Shown here: positions 7,779-63,934 of the stretch, piece by piece
How positions within the stretch are numbered: position 1 is the stretch's first letter
How the letters are laid out: each line of letters begins with the position of its first letter
DNA from: Thermodesulfomicrobium sp. WS
GTDB taxonomy: Bacteria > Desulfobacterota > Desulfovibrionia > Desulfovibrionales > Desulfomicrobiaceae
DNA: 64,000 nt
Direction of reading: 5' to 3'
NCBI RefSeq assembly: GCF_027925145.1
Contig: NZ_AP027130.1
Coordinates: 62,001 to 126,000 of the forward strand
The notes under the pieces: model-generated
The model's input: only the letters and a program-made list of their open reading frames with translations
Database searches by the model: none
What the model was told of the DNA's origin: nothing
Made by a program: the position numbers and the translations under genes

Positions 7779-8227
7779 CCGTCACCGAGACCTTCTCCCA
7801 TCCCCAATTTTCCGCCCGCTTCCATTGGCAAGACGGTCTGCTTGCCTGCATCGAGCTCAGCCCCCCGGCGCCAGCCACGCCGGCGATCTCCCCTTGGGGG
7901 GCGGAACTTGCACGCGTGATCCGCTCCTTGGGCCCAGCCCCCTTTGCCTGGCCGAAACTCCCTTTGGCGCGGCACCGCGTCTCCGCCTTCGCCTGGGAGG
8001 TGCTCCGCTCCCTGGCGCGCACCGTGCCGCCCGGCACGACCACCACCTACGGCGAGCTGGCGCAGCACCTCGGGACCAGTCCGCGCGCCATCGGTCAGGT
8101 CATGGCCCGCAACCCGTGGCCGCTCCTTTTTCCATGCCACCGAGTGCTCGCGCGCAAAGGACTGGGCGGATACGGTCCAGGACTCGCCCTCAAGGCCGTG
8201 CTCCTGCGCCTCGAAGAAGCGATCTAG
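7775..8227 (+). CDS. ogt: Methylated-DNA-[protein]-cysteine S-methyltransferase
   Basis: A 150-residue suicide DNA-repair protein that removes alkyl groups from O6-alkylguanine. The active-site motif is FPCHRVLARKG, preceded by the helix-turn-helix region TTYGELAQHLGTSPRAIGQVMARNP. The length (~150) indicates an Ogt-type or stand-alone MGMT without the Ada regulatory domain. The start overlaps the radical SAM stop codon (ATGA) with AGGAGC just upstream, so the two form an operon. The 3' end overlaps the convergent PilZ gene by four bases. The symbol is by family; paralogues cannot be excluded. Confidence 0.9.
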   Translation: MTVTETFSHPQFSARFHWQDGLLACIELSPPAPATPAISPWGAELARVIRSLGPAPFAWPKLPLARHRVSAFAWEVLRSLARTVPPGTTTTYGELAQHLGTSPRAIGQVMARNPWPLLFPCHRVLARKGLGGYGPGLALKAVLLRLEEAI

Positions 8228-8583
8228 TCCTCCCCAAAGGCCGGGGTGCGAAGTTCTTCGTCCACCTGGTCGGCATCCTCGGCGTAGAGGCGCACCACAT
8301 TGCGCAGGTGGGCGAAGTCCTTCTCTTCCAGGCGCACAAAGTCCACCGCCACCTCAGTGGTTCCGGCCCGCACCACCCGGCCGACGGCATGGATGCGTAG
8401 GCCTGAAGCCAAGGCCAAAGTCACCGCACACTCAGCTCCGACCTGCAATAGGCCATCCACGGAGCAGGAGAGCCCCTTCAGGCTCACATCGTGGAGCATA
8501 CCCTGCACACGGCGGCCATCCTGCACCACAACTACCGGGATTTCCACATGCACCCGGCTGCGTCGGCGTCGTTCCTGACCCAT
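8224..8583 (-). CDS. PilZ-domain protein
   Basis: A 119-residue single-domain PilZ protein, a probable cyclic-di-GMP receptor. The N-terminus QERRRRSRVHVEIPVVV supplies the RxxxR-type arginine patch, and HDVSLKGLSCSVDG corresponds to the D/NxSxxG motif, so both ligand-binding elements are present. The C-terminus (about 95-119) is acidic. ATG at 8583 is chosen because GGGAGG lies five bases upstream; an in-frame GTG two codons earlier is less likely. It is the last gene of the rng-queH-hemW-DEAD operon. Output partner unknown; a diguanylate cyclase is encoded at 41199. Confidence 0.85.
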   Translation of the reverse strand: MGQERRRRSRVHVEIPVVVVQDGRRVQGMLHDVSLKGLSCSVDGLLQVGAECAVTLALASGLRIHAVGRVVRAGTTEVAVDFVRLEEKDFAHLRNVVRLYAEDADQVDEELRTPAFGED

Positions 8584-8600
8584 GCGCACCTCCCGTGGTG

Positions 8601-41174: not shown

Positions 41175-41198
41175 TACTCCTTGCCCAGGAGGTATCTC

Positions 41199-42629
41199 AT
41201 GCCGCAGTCCTATTGGTCTCTTGGACTTCCTTTGGCCATCGCCCAGGCCCTCGAAGTCATGCTGACCGCCCCCTTGGCCGCCGCCGAGCCTGCAAAGCTC
41301 GCGGATCTTCGTGAAGATGCGGTCGTTTTCGTGGCAGCGTCCACGTGGGACTCCGTACCGCGCAACACCCGCCGTATCCTGGAACAGGGCGGGCTTGCCT
41401 GCGTGCTGGTGGCGGACACCACCGCCGAGCACGCCCTGGAACTTTTTGCCGCCGGCCGCTTCGTGGCGGTGGTGACGCTTCCCTTGACCACGGAAAAGAT
41501 CACCGTCCTCATCACGCAACTGCGGGAGATGTTCCAGATCAGCGCGGACATGCGCAATATGGCCAAAGAGATCACCCTGGAGCGGGAACTCTTGGTGCGC
41601 AAAAACGAAGAACTCGCCTTTCTCAACGGCGTGCTGCGCAACGCATCGGCCACCCTGGAGATCCAGCAGGTGCTCGCCTCCTACCTCCATGCCCTCACCA
41701 CCCTGGTGCCCGTGCACCAAGCCGCCGCAGTTCTTTGGGAATCCACGGAAAATGGCCTGGAAGCGGATTTCCTCCTCCCCCACGGGGCCCCGGAACTCCA
41801 GGAGCAATGGATCAATCATCTCGGCCACGTCATGGAACGGCTAGGCGGCGGCATCGCCACGGCCTTTCGGCGGGAAGTCCTCAGATGGGGAGAGCCTTTG
41901 CAGCACCCCCCACACAAGGCCGAACTCTTTACCCAGACCCTCCAGACGACCCAGGGGGGGACCTTCGGCGCCCTCGTACTCTGCACCCAAGGGGCCCACA
42001 CCTTGGGGCGAGATCGATTGCGCACCCTGCACGCCGCAGCCAACCACGTGGCCCTGGCCCTGCACAACGCCCTGCGCTTTCGCCGCGTCAAGGCCATGGC
42101 GGACCACGACGGCCTGACCCACATCGCCAACCGCCATGCCTTCGACAAACGGCTGCGGGAGGAGATGAAACGTCACCAGCGGCACGCCCAGGAACTCAGC
42201 CTGCTCATGCTGGACCTCGATTTCTTCAAGGCCGTCAACGATACTTACGGCCACTTGGCTGGAGACATGGTGCTTGCCCGCGTGGGGCAATTGCTGCAGC
42301 GCACCTTACGGGAATCGGACTTCCCGGCCCGGTTCGGCGGCGAAGAATTCATCGTCCTCTTGCCGCAGACCGGTGAAGAGCAGGCGTGGATTCTCGCCGA
42401 GCGCATCCGCAGCCTCATTGCCCAGGAACGCTTTTCCTTCGAGGGCAAGACCTTCCGGGTGACGGCCTCCATCGGCGTCGCCGGCATGCGCCCCGGGGCT
42501 GTCACCCCGCCGGAGGCCCTGGTGCACGAGGCCGATCAGGCCCTCTACCGGGCCAAGACCAGCGGCCGCAACATGGTGTGCGTCTCGTCCGTGTGCGACG
42601 CCTCGACCCCGATCTGCGCCCACTCGTAG
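41199..42629 (+). CDS. Diguanylate cyclase with degenerate N-terminal and GAF-like sensory regions
   Basis: A 476-residue GGDEF protein. Residues about 15-110 look like a degenerate receiver or similar alpha/beta domain (VVFVAASTWDSV), about 110-140 a coiled coil, and about 145-290 a GAF-like domain. The C-terminal GGDEF domain (about 300-460) has MLDLDFFKAVNDTYGHLAGD and RFGGEEFIVLL. The active-site GGEEF is intact and RESD five residues before it is the inhibitory I-site, so an active, feedback-regulated c-di-GMP synthase is expected. AGGAGG precedes ATG 41199. It could act with the PilZ protein at 8224. Confidence 0.88.
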   Translation: MPQSYWSLGLPLAIAQALEVMLTAPLAAAEPAKLADLREDAVVFVAASTWDSVPRNTRRILEQGGLACVLVADTTAEHALELFAAGRFVAVVTLPLTTEKITVLITQLREMFQISADMRNMAKEITLERELLVRKNEELAFLNGVLRNASATLEIQQVLASYLHALTTLVPVHQAAAVLWESTENGLEADFLLPHGAPELQEQWINHLGHVMERLGGGIATAFRREVLRWGEPLQHPPHKAELFTQTLQTTQGGTFGALVLCTQGAHTLGRDRLRTLHAAANHVALALHNALRFRRVKAMADHDGLTHIANRHAFDKRLREEMKRHQRHAQELSLLMLDLDFFKAVNDTYGHLAGDMVLARVGQLLQRTLRESDFPARFGGEEFIVLLPQTGEEQAWILAERIRSLIAQERFSFEGKTFRVTASIGVAGMRPGAVTPPEALVHEADQALYRAKTSGRNMVCVSSVCDASTPICAHS

Positions 42630-45105: not shown

Positions 45106-46671
45106 TTACGCTACCTCCCAGCCCACGATCTGACGTTTTACCGTGCTGAACTCCACGCCCACCTCGATGACGGTGATCCCCGGGGCCCGGTATTTGGCAG
45201 CGTAGTCTTTCTTCTTGAGCTGGGCGAGGGCCGCGCCGGTGGGGGCTTCGCCGTCCACCACTTTGAATTCCAGGACCCAGGCGACGTCTCCTGCCCGCAC
45301 GGTGAGGTCGCAGCGGCCCAGGTGGCTCACGTCCTCCGGGATGATGGTGACCCCCACCGCCGCCAGGTGACTATAGAACACGCTGGCAAAATAGCCTTCG
45401 TACCGGGCCATGGGGTTTTTGCGGTACCAGTCCGCGGGGATGCCCGCAAAAAGGCGCATCATGTGCTCGCCCAGGGCGTGGGCGTCGCCGCTTCGCAGGA
45501 TGCGCAGCACGAAAAGCGATGCTTCGTCGCGAAAACCGGGCACCAAGGCGCGGGTCAGGGCCGTATTGAGGGCCATGCGCACCTCGCGGTTGGGGAGGGT
45601 GAGTCCATAGAGGAGGAGGTCCCCTTCGCGCAGCACCTCGCCGATGGTGAGATACCCGGTCTGCCACAAAAGCGCCTCAGGTTCGATACCATCCACATCG
45701 AAGGCGGAGAGCAGGGCCTCGCTGGCATAAAGGCGCTCGAGACGCGGGGTGAAGAACTGATGGCGCATGAGCCGCTCCACGAGAAAGGTGGGCGTGGCGG
45801 TCTCGAACCACCAGGCGCGAAATTCCCGTTGGCGCAGGAGCAGCAGCACATCGAAGGGATTGTAGACGCTCGCTTCGCTTCCCCAGCGGTAGCCGTTGTA
45901 CCAGGCGCGCACGGCATCGCGATCAAGGGCGCGGCCTTCCTTGGCGGCCGCAGCGAACTCCGGGGCAAAGACCGTGTCCAGATCGTCTTCGGTGTAGCCG
46001 CAAATGGTGGCCACCGAGGCATCCACGGTGAGGTCATAGAGGTTGTTGAGCCCGGAAAAGAGGCTCACTTTGCTGAACTTGGAGACTCCGGTCAAAAACA
46101 CGAAGCGCAGGTCTGCATCCCGGCCCTTGAGCACGGAGTAGAGGTTGCGCAGGCCCTCGCGCATGGCCCGCGCCGTGTCCGGATCGGTGAGGTTATCGAG
46201 GATGGGTTTGTCGTACTCGTCGATGAGCACCACGGCCTGGCGCCCATGCTGTTCTGCAGCGCGGCTGATGAGCTGACCGAAGCGCAGATGGACGTCTTTG
46301 GGCGCAGGATCGATGGACACCCCGAGGCGCCGCGCATTTTCCGTCAGGATCTCGTGGATGTGTTCTTCCAACTGGGCTTCCTGCTGCAGCCGCCCCTCGG
46401 CAAAGGAGAGCCGGATCACCGGATGGCGCTTCTCCCAGTCCCAATGATTTTCCAGATAGAGGCCGGAAAAGAGCGCACGGTTTGCCGCAAAGGCCTCGGC
46501 CAGGGTATCGAGGAAGAGGCTTTTGCCGAAGCGCCGCGGCCGCGAGAGGAAGTAGTACTTCCCGCTTTCGGCAAGGCGCGCCACAAAAGGCGTCTTGTCC
46601 ACGTAGTAATATCCTTCGCGCCGGATCTCGGCAAAGGTCTGGATGCCGATGGGCAGTTTCTTGCGCTCCAT
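45106..46671 (-). CDS. AAA-ATPase-like / PD-(D/E)XK nuclease-like protein (PF09820-PF08011 type)
   Basis: A 521-residue protein of uncharacterised function. The N-terminal domain (about 1-300) starts IGIQTFAEIRREGYYYVDKT and has YFLSRPRRFGKSLFLDTL as its unusual P-loop and AVVLIDEYDKPILDN as Walker B. The middle includes WYNGYRWGSEASVYNPFDVL. The C-terminal DUF1703-type domain ends in DLTVRAGDVAWVLEFKV, the D...ExK pattern of PD-(D/E)XK nucleases. GAGGTGG precedes ATG 46671. It is a single-gene unit with its own promoter, bounded by direct repeats. Members of this family are often multicopy in bacterial genomes. Defence or mobile-element roles are speculation. Confidence 0.85.
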   Translation of the reverse strand: MERKKLPIGIQTFAEIRREGYYYVDKTPFVARLAESGKYYFLSRPRRFGKSLFLDTLAEAFAANRALFSGLYLENHWDWEKRHPVIRLSFAEGRLQQEAQLEEHIHEILTENARRLGVSIDPAPKDVHLRFGQLISRAAEQHGRQAVVLIDEYDKPILDNLTDPDTARAMREGLRNLYSVLKGRDADLRFVFLTGVSKFSKVSLFSGLNNLYDLTVDASVATICGYTEDDLDTVFAPEFAAAAKEGRALDRDAVRAWYNGYRWGSEASVYNPFDVLLLLRQREFRAWWFETATPTFLVERLMRHQFFTPRLERLYASEALLSAFDVDGIEPEALLWQTGYLTIGEVLREGDLLLYGLTLPNREVRMALNTALTRALVPGFRDEASLFVLRILRSGDAHALGEHMMRLFAGIPADWYRKNPMARYEGYFASVFYSHLAAVGVTIIPEDVSHLGRCDLTVRAGDVAWVLEFKVVDGEAPTGAALAQLKKKDYAAKYRAPGITVIEVGVEFSTVKRQIVGWEVA

Positions 46672-46703
46672 AACCACCTCGGGATAAGCAAAGATATGGC
46701 CAC

Positions 46704-46731
46704 TGGATACCCTGGCCAAGGGAAAAGTCAA
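46704..46731 (-). promoter_or_regulatory. Promoter of the AAA-ATPase gene
   Basis: Read on the minus strand, TTGACT (46731-46726), a 16-base spacer and TATCCA (46709-46704). Transcription should start near 46697, giving a leader of about 26 bases that includes the GAGGTGG ribosome site. The -10 box and spacer are covered by the left arm of the inverted repeat 46705-46751. Confidence 0.55.
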
Positions 46732-46751
46732 AGCACTTGGCCAGCGTATCC
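46705..46751. repeat. 16-bp inverted repeat overlapping the AAA-ATPase promoter
   Basis: The left arm is GGATACCCTGGCCAAG (46705-46720) and the right arm CTTGGCCAGCGTATCC (46736-46751), with a 15-base centre. Fifteen of sixteen positions pair; the single mismatch is C opposite C. The centre holds the -35 box and the left arm covers the -10, so it looks like a repressor operator or cruciform control element rather than an RNA terminator. Confidence 0.75.
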
Positions 46752-46852
46752 GCAAGGGACTCCAAGCGATACACCACACGAGACTCCGTATGCTGCAGGA
46801 ATCTATCCCTATAGGGGCCATGGACGACGCGGCACACCGCGCCCTCCCTAAT

Positions 46853-46914
46853 CCCAAAAGCAAAACCGGCCTGTGCATCATACCACACAGGCCGGCTTTG
46901 GCAAAAGGAGGAAG
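46853..46914. repeat. Right copy of the hairpin-bearing direct repeat
   Basis: Matches 44997-45057. Here the inverted repeat is longer and intact: CCGGCCTGTG (46866-46875) pairs perfectly with CACAGGCCGG (46886-46895), with AAA/TTT outer pairs. On the minus strand it is followed by TTTTGCTTTTGGG and lies about 30 bases after the small reading frame that follows tsaC, so it probably terminates that operon. Confidence 0.75.
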
Positions 46915-49588: not shown

Positions 49589-52500
49589 ATGACGCCCTCC
49601 TCTCACGGCCCGACTCCCGGGCCGTTCGTCTTTCTGGATCCCCAAGGCCGCAGGTGGCGCCGCATCCGCCTGGGTCTTGGCCTTGCCGTGACGGTCTGTA
49701 TCGTCGCCCTGGGGATCTTTATCCAGGCGATCCTGCATCCGTCCCCGCTGGCGCCGCTCCCCTTGCATACGCCGCATTTCAACCACGGAACCCCCATTAC
49801 CGAGGCGCCCCTGCGGCCGGATTGGCCTGCTGTCCACACGCCGCCGTCCCTGTCCGCGGGCGTACGAAAACCCGCCGCGACCATGCGCGTGGCATGGCAT
49901 GCTCCATGGGATACCCGCGCTTGGGATGTCCTGCGCAGGCACACCAGCGATCTCGATGCCGTGGTCGTAGAATGGATGAGCCTTGTGGACGTCGAGGGCC
50001 ATGTGCGCATGGAATCTGACGAGCGTTTGGATACACTCTCCAGCGCCGACGAAGCGCTCGGCATCTATCTGGTACTCAACAATCTCGCGCAGGACCGATG
50101 GCAGCCCGAGGCCGTGGAAGAATTGGCCCGCTCCTCGCCCGCCCGCCAGGCGGAAGTCCTCGCGCCGGTATGGGCAGAAATGGAGCGAGTCCGGGCTCGA
50201 GGGCTGGTGCTCCACTTCGAAGGTCTGGATCCGGACCTCGCCGAGAGCATCACCGCCCTCATCTGCAGCATGGCGCAAACTCTCCACGCCCAAGGCCGAG
50301 AGCTGTGGCTCGCCGTGCCGGCTTCCCGGGATGCCAACGCCCTGTCCTGCGCCGCCCTGGCCTCCTCGGTGGACCGTTTCATAGCCCTCCTCCACACCGA
50401 GACCGCAGCGGATGAACCGCCCGGCCCCATCGCCTCGCAGCCATGGTTCCAAGGATGGCTCGACGCCCTGCTGGAAAAAGGCGGCCAGCCCGAGCAGTGG
50501 ATCATCGCCATCGGCAACCACGGCTACGAATGGCAGCCCCAAGGCGCGGGCAAAGAAATCTCCTTCGTCGATGCCATGGAGCGGGCCCGCCGCGCCGACA
50601 GCCCCCAGCTCACCATGGACCTTCCCCTGCTGCAGCCAGGCTTGCGGTACGACGTCAACGGCGAGGAGCGCATCGTCTGGTTCCAGGACGTGGTCACCTT
50701 CGTCAATCAGGTGAAGTATGCCTTATCCCGCGGGGTGAGCGGTATCCTTCTCTACCGCCTTGGCACCGAAGACCCGGGGGTGTGGAGCATCGTCTGGGAC
50801 CAGCCAGGCGAGCCGCCGACCACCATCGCCCCAGAGGGACGAGTGGCCCACGTGGGCGAAGGCGACAGCATCCTGGCTGAAGACGAGGAAACCCCGGGCC
50901 TGCGGGAACTCGTCCCGCTTGCGGACGGCACATGGAAGTCCCGCTTCGTCCTGCTGCCCCGCTGCGCCACGGTGGTGCATTCCGGCGCATCCACGATGCC
51001 TGGCCAGGTGGTGCTCTCCTTCGACGACGGCCCAGATCCCCGCTGGACCCCGGCCATCTTGGACATCCTCAAGAAATGGCGCGTTCCTGCGGTCTTTTTT
51101 GTCACCGGCAGAAATGCCGAACGCTACCCCGAACTCATCCGCCGCATGGCCGACGAAGGGCACCTGGTCGCCAACCACAGCTTCTTCCACCCGGATATCG
51201 CCCGCATATCCGGCCCCCATGCCGCCTTGGAACTCGTCTCCACCACGAGGATCATCGAAACCCTTACCGGCCGCTCGCCCCGACTCTTCCGGCCTCCGTA
51301 TCTGCGCGATTCGCTCCCAGCCACCCGAGAAGAACTCACGGCACTCGTGCGCGCCCAGAAACAAGGGCTCATCGTGCTTGGCCAAAGCATCGACCCCCGT
51401 GACTACGAACGGCCCGAAGCCCAGGAGATCGCCCTGCGTGTGGCGGAGCAACTGAGCCAAGGCCGCGTGCTCCTGCTGCATGACGGCGGTGGCGACCGCA
51501 GCGCAACCGTAGCCGCGCTCCCCCAGATCCTCGAAGCCATCCGCGACCGCGGCGGGCAAGTCGTGCCCGTGTGGGAGCTCCTCAATACCGATGCCGCTGC
51601 CCTGGCCCCTCCGGCGCCGCCTGCACCCGACACCGTGGTGGCAGGGATCGGGTTTTCCCTGTGGCGCATACTGGAAACGGGCCTGTGGTGGGTGGTGGCA
51701 GGATGCACGGTGCTCGTGCTCGTGCGCACCATGGTGCTCCTGGTCCTCGCCACCTGGCAGATCCGCCGGGAAACACCACACACCCCCTGGCCCCTGCCGG
51801 TATCCATCCTGGTGCCTGCGCACAACGAGGCCCTGACCATTGGCGCCACAGTCCAAAGTCTCCTGGAACAAGAACATTCCCCAGGAATCGAAGTCCTCAT
51901 CCTCGACGACGGCAGCTCTGACGGCACTGCGGAGGCCGCCCAAAAGGCCGGTCAAGGCGACCCTCGACTGCGGGTGCTGCGCCTGCCGCATGGGGGCAAG
52001 GCAGCCGCGCTTAACCAAGGCATCGCCGCAGCCCGCCACGAAGTGCTCGTGATGCTCGATGCCGATACGCAACTGGCCCCAGGGGCAGTGGGAGAACTTG
52101 CCGCGTACTTTCATGACCCAAGCGTTGGCGCGGTCTCCGGCACGGCCCGGGCCAGCAACCGACACCGGGCCCTTACCCGCTGGCAGGATTTGGAATACCT
52201 CTGCGGCTTCAACCTGGAGCGCCGCGCCTGCCACCACATCGACGGCATCCTGGTGGTCCCCGGCGCCATCGGCGCCTGGCGCAAAGCGGCCCTGACCGCC
52301 ATTGGCGGCTTTGCCACCGATACCCTGGCCGAAGACACCGACGCCACCATCGCCCTGCAGCGCGCCGGCTGGCGCGTGCGGCATCAAGGCCGGGCCGTGG
52401 CGTGGACCCAAGTCCCCGCCGATATGTCCTCCTTCATTCGACAACGCTTCCGTTGGGCCTTCGGCACCATGCAGGCGCTCTGGAAACACCGCGCCGCCAT

Positions 52501-52873
52501 GGGCGATACCCGGCTGCGCGGCCTGGGGCTCTTCACCATGCCCGGGACGTGGTTTTTCCAGATAGTGCTGGTGCTTGGAGGTCCTTTGCTCGACCTTGGC
52601 CTGATTCTGAGCGCCGCTTCAGGCGTCACCACCGCGGCAGCCCTCGCCCTTACCGTGTTTCTGCTCTTGGATTTGAGCCTGGCGGCCTTTGCCCTCTGCG
52701 TCGAAGGGGAACGTCTGCGGGATGCCTGGCAGGTCATCCCCATGCGCCTTGTCTACCGACCGCTTCTTGCCTGGGCGGCATGGAAAGCCACCATCGCCAT
52801 GGCTCGGGGAGTCTGGCAAGGCTGGACCAAGGCCGAGCGTCACGCCATCACCCTTGCCCGGAGCACCTCATGA
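49589..52873 (+). CDS. Fusion protein: GH18-like domain, NodB polysaccharide deacetylase and processive GT2 synthase
   Basis: A 1094-residue membrane protein. An N-terminal membrane helix (about 28-50) is followed by a YaaH-type GH18-like domain (about 95-420). The NodB deacetylase lies at about 470-655, with SFDDGPDP, NHSFFHPDI, RPPYL and LLLHDGGGD, so its metal and base residues are intact. A membrane helix (about 690-725) leads to a GT2 synthase (about 735-960) with VPAHNE, LDDGSSDGT, LDADTQ, EDTDATIA and QRFRW, plus C-terminal membrane segments. It probably polymerises and deacetylates an amino-sugar polymer, by analogy to Pga/Ica systems; product unknown. The GH18 catalytic motif reads GLVLHFEGL, missing the usual aspartates. 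It overlaps the GH26-like gene by four bases. Confidence 0.88.
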   Translation: MTPSSHGPTPGPFVFLDPQGRRWRRIRLGLGLAVTVCIVALGIFIQAILHPSPLAPLPLHTPHFNHGTPITEAPLRPDWPAVHTPPSLSAGVRKPAATMRVAWHAPWDTRAWDVLRRHTSDLDAVVVEWMSLVDVEGHVRMESDERLDTLSSADEALGIYLVLNNLAQDRWQPEAVEELARSSPARQAEVLAPVWAEMERVRARGLVLHFEGLDPDLAESITALICSMAQTLHAQGRELWLAVPASRDANALSCAALASSVDRFIALLHTETAADEPPGPIASQPWFQGWLDALLEKGGQPEQWIIAIGNHGYEWQPQGAGKEISFVDAMERARRADSPQLTMDLPLLQPGLRYDVNGEERIVWFQDVVTFVNQVKYALSRGVSGILLYRLGTEDPGVWSIVWDQPGEPPTTIAPEGRVAHVGEGDSILAEDEETPGLRELVPLADGTWKSRFVLLPRCATVVHSGASTMPGQVVLSFDDGPDPRWTPAILDILKKWRVPAVFFVTGRNAERYPELIRRMADEGHLVANHSFFHPDIARISGPHAALELVSTTRIIETLTGRSPRLFRPPYLRDSLPATREELTALVRAQKQGLIVLGQSIDPRDYERPEAQEIALRVAEQLSQGRVLLLHDGGGDRSATVAALPQILEAIRDRGGQVVPVWELLNTDAAALAPPAPPAPDTVVAGIGFSLWRILETGLWWVVAGCTVLVLVRTMVLLVLATWQIRRETPHTPWPLPVSILVPAHNEALTIGATVQSLLEQEHSPGIEVLILDDGSSDGTAEAAQKAGQGDPRLRVLRLPHGGKAAALNQGIAAARHEVLVMLDADTQLAPGAVGELAAYFHDPSVGAVSGTARASNRHRALTRWQDLEYLCGFNLERRACHHIDGILVVPGAIGAWRKAALTAIGGFATDTLAEDTDATIALQRAGWRVRHQGRAVAWTQVPADMSSFIRQRFRWAFGTMQALWKHRAAMGDTRLRGLGLFTMPGTWFFQIVLVLGGPLLDLGLILSAASGVTTAAALALTVFLLLDLSLAAFALCVEGERLRDAWQVIPMRLVYRPLLAWAAWKATIAMARGVWQGWTKAERHAITLARSTS

Positions 52874-53964
52874 GCCGAACCCATGCTGCCATCGCTGGAT
52901 TTTGGATCGCCATGATCGCGAGCCTCCTTGGGCCCGCCCTTGGCCGAACGGAAACTGTGCCCGAAAACGCCACCTTGGCCATCCCCCCGCAAGGCATCTA
53001 CTTTGGGGCCTACATCGATGCCGGGCCGGCGGAAGATGACGTCTCGCACGAGAGTATCGCCGCCTTCGAAACCATGGTGGGCAAGCGCGTGGCCATTCTC
53101 GCCTTCTCGAGCTACTGGGGCCGCAACACCTTTCCCGAGGCCCAGGTGCGCATCGCCCACCACCGCGGCATGGTCCCCCTCATCTACTGGTCCCCCTGGG
53201 AATATCCCTTCCCTGGGCTCAATGCCCCCAACCCATACTCCCTGCACGCCATCATCCAGGGCCAGTGGGACGACTACATCCGCCGCTGGGCCAAAGCTGC
53301 CGCAGCCACCCGCCGCCCCATCTTGGTGGCCTTCGGCATCGAGATGAACGGCGAGTGGTTTCCGTGGTCCGGCATCTTCCATGGGGCAGGCACCCCCACC
53401 GCCCCCGGCGCCTTTTCCCCATGGGCCGGGCCCGATGCCTATATCCGCGCCTACCGCCACGTGGTGGACCTGGCCCGAGCCCAAGGGGCGAAGAACATCC
53501 GCTGGGTCTTTCACGTCAACAACACCTCCAACCCCGATGCCCCCTGGAACCAACCGGCAGCCTACGACCCTGGCGACGACTACGTGGACATCCTCGCCAT
53601 GAGTGCCTACGGGAAACAGTATCCCGGCCCAGGCGGCTGGATTCCCTTCCGAAAAACCATCGATCCTTTCTATCCTGCGCTCGCCGCCATCCATCCCCAC
53701 AAACCGATCCTCCTGGCCGAATGGGGGATCGGAGAATTTCCCGCCTCTGGCGACAAGGCAAGCTATCTGCGCGAAGCCCTTGCGCTCCTGCCCCGCGCCT
53801 ATCCCCGGCTCATGGGTGCGGTCTTCTGGCACGAACGCTGGGAAAATAGCGATGGCCGCCACTCCAATCTCCGCGTCAACTCCTCCCGCGCATCCCTCGA
53901 TGCCTTCCGCCAAGGCATCGCCGATCCATTGTGGCTTGCCCGCCCCATCTGGAAGACGCCCTAG
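52870..53964 (+). CDS. Exported GH26-like glycoside hydrolase
   Basis: A 364-residue protein with an N-terminal signal peptide (about 1-26). The TIM-barrel contains AFGIEMNGEWFPWSG, matching the acid/base motif of GH26 mannanase/lichenase-type enzymes, and KPILLAEWGIGEF, matching the nucleophile strand, so the active site looks intact. WSPWEYPFPGLNAPNPYSL and NIRWVFHVNNTSNPDAPW support the family. Its start overlaps the stop of the synthase fusion (ATGA), so it likely trims or releases the same exopolysaccharide. Substrate unknown. Confidence 0.85.
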   Translation: MSRTHAAIAGFWIAMIASLLGPALGRTETVPENATLAIPPQGIYFGAYIDAGPAEDDVSHESIAAFETMVGKRVAILAFSSYWGRNTFPEAQVRIAHHRGMVPLIYWSPWEYPFPGLNAPNPYSLHAIIQGQWDDYIRRWAKAAAATRRPILVAFGIEMNGEWFPWSGIFHGAGTPTAPGAFSPWAGPDAYIRAYRHVVDLARAQGAKNIRWVFHVNNTSNPDAPWNQPAAYDPGDDYVDILAMSAYGKQYPGPGGWIPFRKTIDPFYPALAAIHPHKPILLAEWGIGEFPASGDKASYLREALALLPRAYPRLMGAVFWHERWENSDGRHSNLRVNSSRASLDAFRQGIADPLWLARPIWKTP

Positions 53965-61087: not shown

Positions 61088-61692
61088 CTTTCGACTCCGG
61101 GCAGACGAAGCTGCGTGCCCCTCGGGAACGTTCCCCGAAAGGTATGGCGGTGCAGAGGGCTTGCCCCCAAACGCGCAATGGCCGCCCGGTGTTCGGCCGT
61201 GCCGTAACCTTTGTGGCGCTCCAAGCCATAGCCCGGATAGCGCTCCGCCAAGGCCTCCATGAGGCGGTCCCGGAAGGTCTTGGCCAAGATCGAGGCCGCA
61301 GAGATGGCAGGCACCGACACATCCCCCCCCACAATGGCCTCCACCGGCATGGGCGCGGGAAAGACCTGGTTGCCGTCCACCAGCACCCGCGCCGGCGCCA
61401 TGGCCAAGGCCTCCACGGCCCGGGCCATGGCCCGCAAGGTGGCCTGAAGGATGTTGACGGCCTCAATCTCCCGCGGCCAGGAAAAACCCAAGGCCCAGGA
61501 CACAGCCTGGGCCTTGATCTGACGGGCAAGGAACTCTCGACGCCGCGGAGAAAGCTTCTTGGAGTCCGTAAGCCCCGGCAGGCTCCACGGTACGGGCACA
61601 AGCACCGCAGCAGCCACCACAGGCCCCGCAAGACACCCTCGCCCGGCCTCATCCACCCCTGCCACCAGGACAGAGGCTTCACGCTCGGCCAT
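61084..61692 (-). CDS. rnhB: Ribonuclease HII
   Basis: A 202-residue RNase HII that removes ribonucleotides and RNA primers from [22 protein letters not shown] holds two catalytic acidic residues, [13 protein letters not shown] the substrate-recognition segment, VLVDGNQVF the third aspartate, and [14 protein letters not shown] and [11 protein letters not shown] the rest of the signature. It lies 15 bases after rplS in the usual trmD-rplS-rnhB-yraN order. Confidence 0.96.
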
Positions 61693-61707
61693 CGGCGCCC
61701 CCGCAGC

Positions 61708-62058
61708 CTATACCCAATCCTTCTTGGTCTTGATGCGCGCGGCCTTGCCTTTGAGGTTGCGCAGGTAGAAAAGACGGCTGCGGCGCACCACGCCCTGGGA
61801 GACCACCTCGATGCGGTCGATGCACGGGGCGTGCAGCGGGAAGATACGTTCCACCCCCACGCCGTCGGAGACCTTACGCACCACAAACGAGGCATCCGTG
61901 GTCCCCTTCTTGTAACGAATCACCACACCCTCGAAGATCTGGATACGCTCCTTCTCGCCTTCCACGATACGGGTGTGGACCTTCACCGTATCGCCGGGCC
62001 GAAACGAGGGGATATCGGCGCGCAGGTGCTCGCTCTCAATGTTGCGGATGATGTCCAT
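61708..62058 (-). CDS. rplS: 50S ribosomal protein L19
   Basis: A 116-residue L19, located at the 30S-50S interface. [34 protein letters not shown] and [20 protein letters not shown] are the conserved core, and the basic C-terminus [19 protein letters not shown] contacts rRNA. GGAG-type ribosome site upstream. It follows trmD by 48 bases. Confidence 0.98.
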
Positions 62059-62106
62059 ACTGATTCTCCTTCAAAACTCCTCCTGCAACGATGCACAGGA
62101 GGGGAC

Positions 62107-63378
62107 TTATCCCAGGTCGCCCACCAGCCGATCCACCATGATGGCGGCTGCCGAACGCACCGAGAGATGATTGTACGTTTCCAAAAAACGCACCGGTCGC
62201 AGACAGGCATGCGCCTGCTGGAGGACCTCCGGGGCCAAGCCGTGGCCCGTACCCAACACGAGGAGCACCGGCATGGAGCTGAGCCATTGTCGCACCACCG
62301 ATGCCGTTGTCGTGCCTTCCCGGGCAGAGGTCACCACGATCCGGGGAGGCTGCCCCGTACGCACACGCACCGCCGCCTCCGCCTCCTCCAGCGAGGAAAC
62401 CACGTCCACAAGGCGGAGCGCCTCGCGACGGCACGGATTGGCCGCAGCACCCGCGCCGTCCCGCCAATGGGCCAAAAGCTCCCGCGCCAGGGCTTGTTGG
62501 TCCTCCACGGGGGTGCAGACCCAATAGCCCCCCAGCCCGTAGGTACGGGAAAGGCGGGCAATATCGTGGAGGTCCAGGTTTGTCAAAGAGGTGGCGATGG
62601 TGCGCCCTGTCTTGTCGAGCACCGGATAATGCACCAAGGCGACAAAGAGATTGCGCCCCAGGCGCGGCCGGGACATGCCCTGCAAAAGCCTTTGGTCTGC
62701 AGGATCGAGCTCGGCCGTGTCCAGCAAGTCGGGGCGCAAGGCAAGCGTCTGGCGCAGACTCTGCTCCCGTCGCCAGGCACGGATGCGGGCGTGATCTCCG
62801 GAGAGCAAAATCTCCGGCACCTGGAGTCCGGCATAGACCTCAGGCCGGGTATAGTGCGGATATTCCAGCAGCCCGGCACTAAAACTCTCTTCTTCTGCGC
62901 TCTCTTCCTTGCCCAAGAAATCCGGCACCAAACGCGAGACCGCCTCCAGGAGACACAAGGCCGCACTCTCGCCGCCATTCAAGACCACATCCCCCACCGA
63001 GACGGCCTCCATAGGGAAAAGGGCTTCCAAACGGGCGTCGATCCCCTCGTAACGGCCACAGATCACCACGAGCTCTTCTTCCTGGGCAAGTTCCCGCGCC
63101 AGGGCTTGGGTAAGCGGTCGTCCCTTGGGGGCCAGGAGGATGCGCCGGGCGTTGGGGGCGTCCTTGAGGGCGCGTGCTACCGGGTCCACGGTCATCACCA
63201 TGCCCGCGCCGCCGCCATACGGTCGGTCATCCACGTGGCGGTGCTTGTCCTGGGAATAGTCCCGTGGGTTACGAAACTCCACCTGCACCAGCCCTCGCTC
63301 CACCGCCCGGCCCAGCAAGCCGCAGGAGAGGGGGGAGGCGAAAAATTCCGGGAAAAGGGTAACCAGGGTAAAACGCAT
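62107..63378 (-). CDS. trmD: tRNA (guanine37-N1)-methyltransferase TrmD with extra C-terminal SPOUT-like domain
   Basis: A 423-residue fusion. Residues about 1-240 are TrmD, making m1G37 (TLFPEFFASPLSCGLLGRAV, DDRPYGGGAGMVMTVDPV, VICGRYEGIDARL, SVGDVVLNGGESAA). Residues about 250-423 add a second alpha/beta domain of RNA-methyltransferase type (FVALVHYPVLDKTGRTIATS, LLVLGTGHGLAPEVL), similar to the PF09936 SPOUT-like domain that stands alone in some bacteria. The usual TrmD is about 240-250 residues. No stop or frameshift separates the two parts. The second domain's target is unknown. Confidence 0.93.
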   Translation of the reverse strand: MRFTLVTLFPEFFASPLSCGLLGRAVERGLVQVEFRNPRDYSQDKHRHVDDRPYGGGAGMVMTVDPVARALKDAPNARRILLAPKGRPLTQALARELAQEEELVVICGRYEGIDARLEALFPMEAVSVGDVVLNGGESAALCLLEAVSRLVPDFLGKEESAEEESFSAGLLEYPHYTRPEVYAGLQVPEILLSGDHARIRAWRREQSLRQTLALRPDLLDTAELDPADQRLLQGMSRPRLGRNLFVALVHYPVLDKTGRTIATSLTNLDLHDIARLSRTYGLGGYWVCTPVEDQQALARELLAHWRDGAGAAANPCRREALRLVDVVSSLEEAEAAVRVRTGQPPRIVVTSAREGTTTASVVRQWLSSMPVLLVLGTGHGLAPEVLQQAHACLRPVRFLETYNHLSVRSAAAIMVDRLVGDLG

Positions 63379-63397
63379 ACCGGTGTCTTCGCAGGCC

Positions 63398-63934
63398 TCA
63401 AGGGACTCCGTCTTCCTGACGGCAGAGATCCAAAAGCCCTTCGGGGGGATCGATGACCAAGCGATCGGTTACCGCCTGTACCCGCAGCGCTGCAGGCAGG
63501 ACGTACCGGCTCCCGTCCGCCCCAACCACAGTCCAGAGCTCTTGGCCGGCCACCAAGGCCACGGAGCGCAGTTCCCCCAAGATCTCCCCCTGGGAAAGCT
63601 CCACCGTCGCCCCGATCCATGCCAAAGCGCCCCAGCGTTGCGGATCCGCCGCAGCCACATCCCGGGCACGCCCCAAAACCGCAGCATCCCGCCAAGGCTC
63701 TGCCTTGTCCCGGCCATCCAGACCGTCCACGGCCATGAGCACCCGACCGGAGTGCATCCGGCAGGCAAGCACCGGCCACGGTTTGGCTTTGGCGTCTTGA
63801 CGGCGCAAATACACGCGCGAGATCCGGAGCAAGGCCTCCTGACAGCCGCCATGAGGGGCGACGAGAATTTCTCCCCGCAGCCCGTGCGCCTTCACCACCC
63901 GGCCCAACTCCACGAGTTCCAGGCCACCAGGCAC
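63398..63934 (-). CDS. rimM: 16S rRNA processing protein RimM
   Basis: A 178-residue 30S maturation factor that binds ribosomal protein S19. LVELGRVVKAHGLRGEILVA is the N-terminal RimM-domain signature, and ELWTVVGADGSRYVLPA with LVIDPPEGLLDL is the PRC-barrel. The start is probably GTG at 63934, one base after the khpA stop codon. Length is normal, and the order khpA-rimM-trmD-rplS is canonical. Confidence 0.95.
   Translation of the reverse strand: MPGGLELVELGRVVKAHGLRGEILVAPHGGCQEALLRISRVYLRRQDAKAKPWPVLACRMHSGRVLMAVDGLDGRDKAEPWRDAAVLGRARDVAAADPQRWGALAWIGATVELSQGEILGELRSVALVAGQELWTVVGADGSRYVLPAALRVQAVTDRLVIDPPEGLLDLCRQEDGVP

Follow-up and report, generated by a model that had tools for sequence, protein, structure and literature searches.

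What distinguishes the locus described here is the pairing of a polysaccharide synthase fusion with a GH26 gene; the three-domain fusion itself is widespread and ordinary. In the window, by which we mean the whole 64,000-nucleotide stretch of the Thermodesulfomicrobium sp. WS contig NZ_AP027130.1 that was analysed, both genes lie on the forward strand. The fusion gene (49589..52873, ATG at 49589) encodes a 1094-residue protein with a putative membrane anchor, a GH18 fold, a NodB/CE4 deacetylase and a processive GT2 synthase, and the ATG of the GH26-subfamily gene (52870..53964, 364 residues) overlaps the fusion stop codon by four bases (ATGA at 52870). A first-pass annotation had recognized both the GH18-like, NodB and GT2 domains on one protein and the overlap; the latter is as described, and the domains are confirmed by Pfam, the AlphaFold model and fold matches. 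Our preferred reading, which we consider probable though by no means certain, is that the pair forms a two-gene surface-polysaccharide module, in which a PNAG-like synthase/deacetylase carries a GH18 pseudo-enzyme and the GH26 has taken over trimming.

The AlphaFold model of the fusion (mean pLDDT 87.2) begins with a helix at residues 21-49 (49649..49735), a putative membrane anchor, followed by the GH18 fold at residues 97-408 (49877..50812) and the NodB/CE4 domain at about residues 471-668 (50999..51592). A long helix at residues 680-727 (51626..51769) putatively crosses the membrane and leads from the periplasmic domains to the GT2 catalytic domain (about residues 738-966, 51800..52486), in which the processive DxD, ED and QxxRW motifs are present as LDADT, AEDTD and QRFRW. 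The C-terminal helices at residues 978-1073 (52520..52807) may be the membrane helices of the synthase. This layout of helices implies that the GH18 and NodB domains would be on the periplasmic side, with the GT2 in the cytoplasm. NodB and GT2 are readily detected by Pfam (PF01522, E 4.4e-32, residues 471-573; PF00535, E 1.6e-33, residues 739-876), and the GT2 part of the model matches hyaluronan synthase 8snc with a Z of 34.2. The GH18 family PF00704 gives E 0.0095 at residues 182-392, under the Pfam cut-off; the assignment is upheld despite this, because residues 97-408 of the model match chitinase 5jh8 (Z 33.3, rmsd 2.3 over 304 residues), and the domain is, as modelled, a TIM barrel of the GH18 fold.

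The scan for relatives of the fusion used patterns placed in NodB and GT2, so that the state of the GH18 was not selected for, and the 574 relatives need not carry all three domains. Nevertheless, all of the best 80, on named genome contigs, match from residue 159 or earlier through residue 959 or later, thus spanning the three domains. They come from Verrucomicrobia, Alphaproteobacteria, Bacteroidota, Acidobacteria, Gemmatimonadetes, Bacillota, one cyanobacterium and others, and the triple fusion was rejected as a novelty on the strength of this span. A GH26 gene like that of the window lies downstream of the fusion in only six of the best 80 loci, at ranks 1-5 and 9: four from Verrucomicrobia, one from Thermodesulfobacteriota and one from Desulfobulbus.

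The extent of the pairing was assessed by profile searches of two phyla, apparently on the same genome samples for both proteins. Fusions of this clade were found at E<=1e-150 in 13 of 345 genomes from the phylum of the window and in 8 of 337 from the phylum to which G151, the source of a Verrucomicrobia locus, belongs. GH26 matches at E<=1e-60 were found in 15/345 genomes of the first phylum, 13 of them at E<=1.3e-152, and in 8/337 of the second, all eight reaching E<=2.5e-146. Taking E<=2.5e-146 as the limit for a strong GH26, a cut-off chosen after the score gap was seen, the genomes with a strong GH26 are exactly those with a clade fusion (13 + 8 = 21). The two remaining genomes, G667 and G811, have the weaker GH26 (E<=1e-60) without a fusion. 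The two genes are same-strand neighbours in 19 of the 21; G435 and G737 have them on separate contigs. The first-pass annotation had regarded a GH26 with an amino-sugar-type deacetylase as an unexpected pairing and had named lack of joint conservation as grounds for dropping the idea; the pairing proves both distinct and conserved. Chance adjacency was rejected, as the pair recurs in the same order and orientation in distant genomes. Of the 24 adjacent pairs, 22 were measured for stop-to-start spacing (starts picked by eye; L162 and L164 left out), which ranges from -4 to 114 bases, and in one locus, L160, the whole pair is tandemly duplicated.

Sister fusions appear to be without this partner. 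A search of 24 whole sister-fusion genomes (the L086 genome left out) with the window-type GH26 profile gave no match at E<=1e-10; the set held no positive control of its own, and the same profile did match in the searches of the two phyla. Likewise, no convincing GH26 match could be detected beside the sister fusions, with 1200 or more downstream bases available in 63 of 73 loci. Nor, apart from the two genes and frames overlapping them, was any further gene widely common to the pair loci: ABC-type ATPases, the most frequent neighbours, occurred in 7 of the 24 loci and at no fixed place (several loci being short), and a larger operon around the pair was rejected for want of another widely shared neighbour. 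Control by c-di-GMP, earlier put forward for testing because of a cyclase and a PilZ protein said to be nearby, is unsupported. The GGDEF gene (41181-42629) is about 7 kb from the pair; of 34 window frames scanned, only that at 8224-8589, about 41 kb away, encodes a PilZ protein. No other gene is common to most loci of the pair, and Pfam found no PilZ domain in the fusion.

Two trees were built, one of 66 rows with 42 of the 78 sister fusions and one of 104 rows with all 78. Both, based only on NodB and GT2 columns, place the GH26-bearing fusions in a single clade (SH-aLRT 99); in the larger tree the window row is a long branch (1.38). The 26 clade rows take in L218 and L219, from the genomes G435 and G737, and leave out G002, of the same genus as the window, in which the fusion appears in two reading frames; L100 was left out of every motif count, the frame used being a wrong one of 186 residues. 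The catalytic residues of NodB and GT2 are intact throughout. Seven NodB residues (D479, D480, H530, H534, R568, D602 and H631), which we take to fill the NodB/CE4 motif roles (Asp, His, His, Arg, Asp, His), are present in 26/26 clade rows and 78/78 sisters, and together with eight GT2 residues they make up fifteen positions identical in all 104 rows. Distances among the GH26 proteins correlate with those among their fusions (r 0.655 over 25 pairs; 0 of 2000 permutations as high), a correlation that shared species history alone could yield; nearest neighbours agree in only 10 of 25.

The GH18 active site, as the alignments show, has decayed within this clade. In the window protein the catalytic D-x-E and Y-D motifs read H-F-E and H-T: His209 replaces the Asp, Glu211 is kept, and HTET (269-272) stands in place of YDEH. 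The site of Glu211 was equated with the Glu of the chitinase DFE motif through an alignment of the sister protein L005, and a relative from the same genus as the window likewise keeps the Glu, with His for Asp two residues earlier. The first-pass annotation had reported the GH18-like domain without mention of its degenerate active site. Across the 26 clade rows, position 211 is E in 13, Q in 5, G in 4, N in 2, S in 1 and A in 1, whereas the 78 sisters have E in 74 and D in 4 and are thus acidic in every case. Tyr of the YD motif (position 269) is kept in 3/26 clade rows vs 72/78 sisters, and all four GH18 catalytic residues are intact in 2/24 vs 72/78; a Fisher test on this intactness gives p 7e-15, a value that ignores the kinship of the rows and is not to stand alone. 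Mean identity over the GH18 domain is 0.44 among 24 clade rows and 0.35 among the 78 sisters. With no drop in conservation over the full domain in the clade, the pattern looks like targeted catalytic loss and not general decay.

The acidic or non-acidic state at position 211 changes at least six times on the tree, always within the GH26-bearing clade, a count that cannot separate loss from regain. This clade holds 13.8 of the 44.2 units of tree length, so that under equal rates the probability would be 0.31^6, or about 0.001 as a rough figure. The tree has a single gain of the GH26, whose link to the GH18 decay rests on one clade, though the changes recur inside it. Loss of the catalytic Glu marks non-catalytic chitinase-like lectins, and its replacement by Gln, Gly, Asn, Ser or Ala in 13/26 rows, with the YD Tyr replaced in 23/26, argues against a GH18 that is still active through a rearranged catalytic site, the GH26 adding a second cut. 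We consider such an arrangement very improbable. What it has in its favour is that half of the clade, the window protein included, keeps the Glu and that position 271 is Glu in 25/26 rows; some of these 13 proteins may therefore still cut.

The partner protein belongs to GH26 by Pfam (PF02156, E 4.7e-9, 36.5 bits against a gathering score of 20.2) and by fold. Its model (pLDDT 91.5) is closest in the PDB to the lichenase CtLic26A of Clostridium thermocellum (2bv9; Z 35.2, rmsd 1.8 over 274), and a mannanase as the nearest relative was rejected, the lichenase being closer both by sequence (E 3e-40 vs about 1e-9 for the best mannanases) and by fold (Z 35 vs 26). In the 25 subfamily members compared (L033, cut by a contig end, left out) both catalytic Glu residues, acid/base Glu158 and nucleophile Glu284 in the window, are present and align with those of CtLic26A. 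Unlike in CtLic26A, the R..HE motif has both its Arg and its His replaced in 25/25: the His site is L in 13, N in 4, I in 3, V in 3 and C in 2, such that HE reads IE in the window, and the Arg three residues earlier is gone as well. The earlier label of mannan/glucan type was imprecise: the closest solved relative is a lichenase, but none of the 25 has the HE motif. PMC6556568, in a comparison of GH26 mannanases, describes the HE His and the Arg as conserved -1 subsite residues of these enzymes; the same source terms the HE motif defining for GH26, yet missing in a xylanase branch and in a branch of unknown function. Other GH26-like proteins that lack the fusion also have no His before the acid/base Glu, which weakens the loss as a mark peculiar to the cassette; it would therefore mark a changed substrate and not the cassette alone. 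In the light of clan GH-A structures, loss of the Arg and His might make room for a 2-amino sugar.

CtLic26A belongs to a degrader of plant polysaccharides, whereas the cassette gene is coupled to a synthase. That the closest solved relative of the GH26 cuts a beta-glucan and not an amino-sugar polymer is a counterweight to the module proposed above. The kinship of the GH26 to a lichenase keeps a glucan-like product in contention: the clade synthase would make a different polymer, such as a Glc/GlcN copolymer or a glucan of mixed beta-1,3/1,4 linkage, on which a chitinase-type site is useless and for which a lichenase-type enzyme was recruited, the GH26 then being no replacement for the GH18. 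In favour of such a change of product, clade and sisters are nearly fixed apart at two GT2-domain positions (850 and 874) and at position 1052 of the C-terminal helices. Nevertheless, the main GT2 motifs are those of the sister fusions, the NodB residues, needless for a plain glucan, are invariant, and the top GT2 equivalog in NCBIfam is PgaC/IcaA (TIGR03937), though far below its cut-off (167.4 bits vs 422.3). We therefore hold a different polymer to be unlikely. CE4 enzymes act mostly on GlcNAc polymers, and this habit, taken with the sub-threshold PgaC match, tentatively suggests a GlcNAc-type sugar.

Export of the GH26, which the first-pass annotation had taken as given, is only probable; its N terminus resembles a signal sequence when judged by eye. 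A pattern search found a lipobox-like motif in 12 of the 25 subfamily members, so the enzyme may sit apart from the synthase. This would suit an enzyme secreted for dispersal or foraging and linked to the synthase only by a common operon, with the GH18 decay as unrelated drift. General drift would be expected to leave the entire GH18 domain less conserved, contrary to what is observed, and the identical genome sets at the strong cut-off, the short spacing and the lack of any other widely shared neighbour fit an obligate partner, leaving this explanation quite unlikely in our view.

Other than the sister fusions, several known systems resemble the pair in part. The sisters, from Sphingomonas, Caulobacterales, Bacteroidota, Acidobacteriota, Bacillota and others, share its domain order and main NodB and GT2 motifs, but differ in having an acidic GH18 catalytic site and no window-type GH26 alongside. 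PgaABCD of E. coli and Bordetella, as described in PMC5933820, also combines a deacetylase, a hydrolase and a PgaC-type GT2, with PgaB joining deacetylase to hydrolase; in the pair, by contrast, synthase and deacetylase are one protein and the separate hydrolase is GH26-like where that of PgaABCD is GH153. MatB of Streptomyces has a CE4 joined to a GT2 in one membrane protein, as in the window fusion, and a PNAG-like product has been shown; the available text of PMC5972031 describes two functional domains only, with no GH18, and a partner, MatA, without known domain. Gram-negative PgaB-like proteins fused to a GT, without PgaA and PgaD, are reported in PMC7112194, where a supplementary legend lists putative hydrolase fusions. 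They share with the pair a deacetylase fused to a GT and the lack of a known porin, and relatives of the window fusion may be among them, but a GH26 partner is not described in the accessible part of that source. The earlier statement that Pga/Ica-type activities are on separate proteins is too strong in view of these cases. The pair itself is not a classical Pga/Ica system. Not only is TIGR03937 below its cut-off, but PgaB (TIGR03938) and the PgaA porin (TIGR03939) exceeded theirs in 0/21 pair genomes each, against 1/14 controls for PgaA; weak TPR-type matches in 21/21 leave room for another TPR porin. By these curated criteria the pair lies outside Pga/Ica; it would work like a synthase-dependent polysaccharide system with a partner hydrolase. 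We found no publication on the pair among the papers listed from the open-access library searched, and no characterised member among the sister GH18-NodB-GT2 fusions. The authors of PMC13390465 state that, to their knowledge, no characterised Wzx/Wzy-pathway cluster has a GH26.

In the trimming module that we prefer, the cytoplasmic GT2 would polymerise and extrude an amino-sugar polymer, PNAG- or chitin-like and presumably of GlcNAc, and the protein's own NodB domain, facing the periplasm, would strip some of the acetyl groups. The GH18, a trimming hydrolase by ancestry, would be degenerate and probably serve as a polymer-binding or guiding domain, while the exported, often lipoprotein-like GH26 would now cleave the deacetylated chain made by its own synthase, a role analogous to that of BcsZ, AlgL or the PgaB hydrolase domain elsewhere. 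Trimming after deacetylation has precedent, since the PgaB hydrolase cleaves deacetylated PNAG, with deacetylation followed by limited hydrolysis as the proposed order (PMC5933820). A more specific version is that the GH26, its -1 subsite rebuilt, works on a hexosamine polymer that has lost part of its acetyl groups, and that its acquisition is what made the GH18 a binding or guiding pseudo-enzyme; we offer this hand-over tentatively, at clearly less than an even chance. We know of no GH26 with activity on such a polymer.

In several synthase-dependent polysaccharide systems it is unsettled what the accompanying hydrolase does in synthesis and export (PMC5933820). The pair appears to be a natural exchange experiment on this point, in which one hydrolase decays and an unrelated one becomes the constant partner. 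With its two genes and no recognised porin, it also offers a compact system for the question of polymer export that was raised for the GT-PgaB fusions (PMC7112194). Finally, the pair draws attention to a GH26 subfamily whose substrate is probably new.

Tandem duplication of the pair was seen at one locus, L160 of genome G412, where the fusion and its GH26 are present twice in succession, which supports the view of the pair as one unit. In G002, a relative from the same genus, the fusion (L004/L190) is made up of two reading frames with the junction near residue 415, and a GH26 with about 84% identity is found downstream. This split may reflect either a real break or an assembly error. L179 (G776) has a second GH26-like gene, located apart from the fusion, in which the nucleophile Glu and the WF motif are altered; it is perhaps a decayed copy.

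The window also has a minus-strand gene (45106-46881) encoding a protein with AAA-ATPase_like and PDDEXK_9 domains, and several copies of genes resembling it, as judged by eye, are found near the fusion in L219. An open frame of 770 residues on the plus strand (61144-63456) gave no match in a Pfam scan at E<=0.001.

In six genomes of the same order as the window (L184-L189), a different GT2 is followed closely downstream by a second GH26, for example at L185:7840-14395, where the cluster also includes TPR proteins, a STAS protein and a HATPase, with a PilZ protein nearby. This second GH26 is distant (about 30% identity) and retains the HE motif, the His preceding the acid/base Glu. The association of GH26 proteins with polysaccharide systems of the synthase type may be more general.
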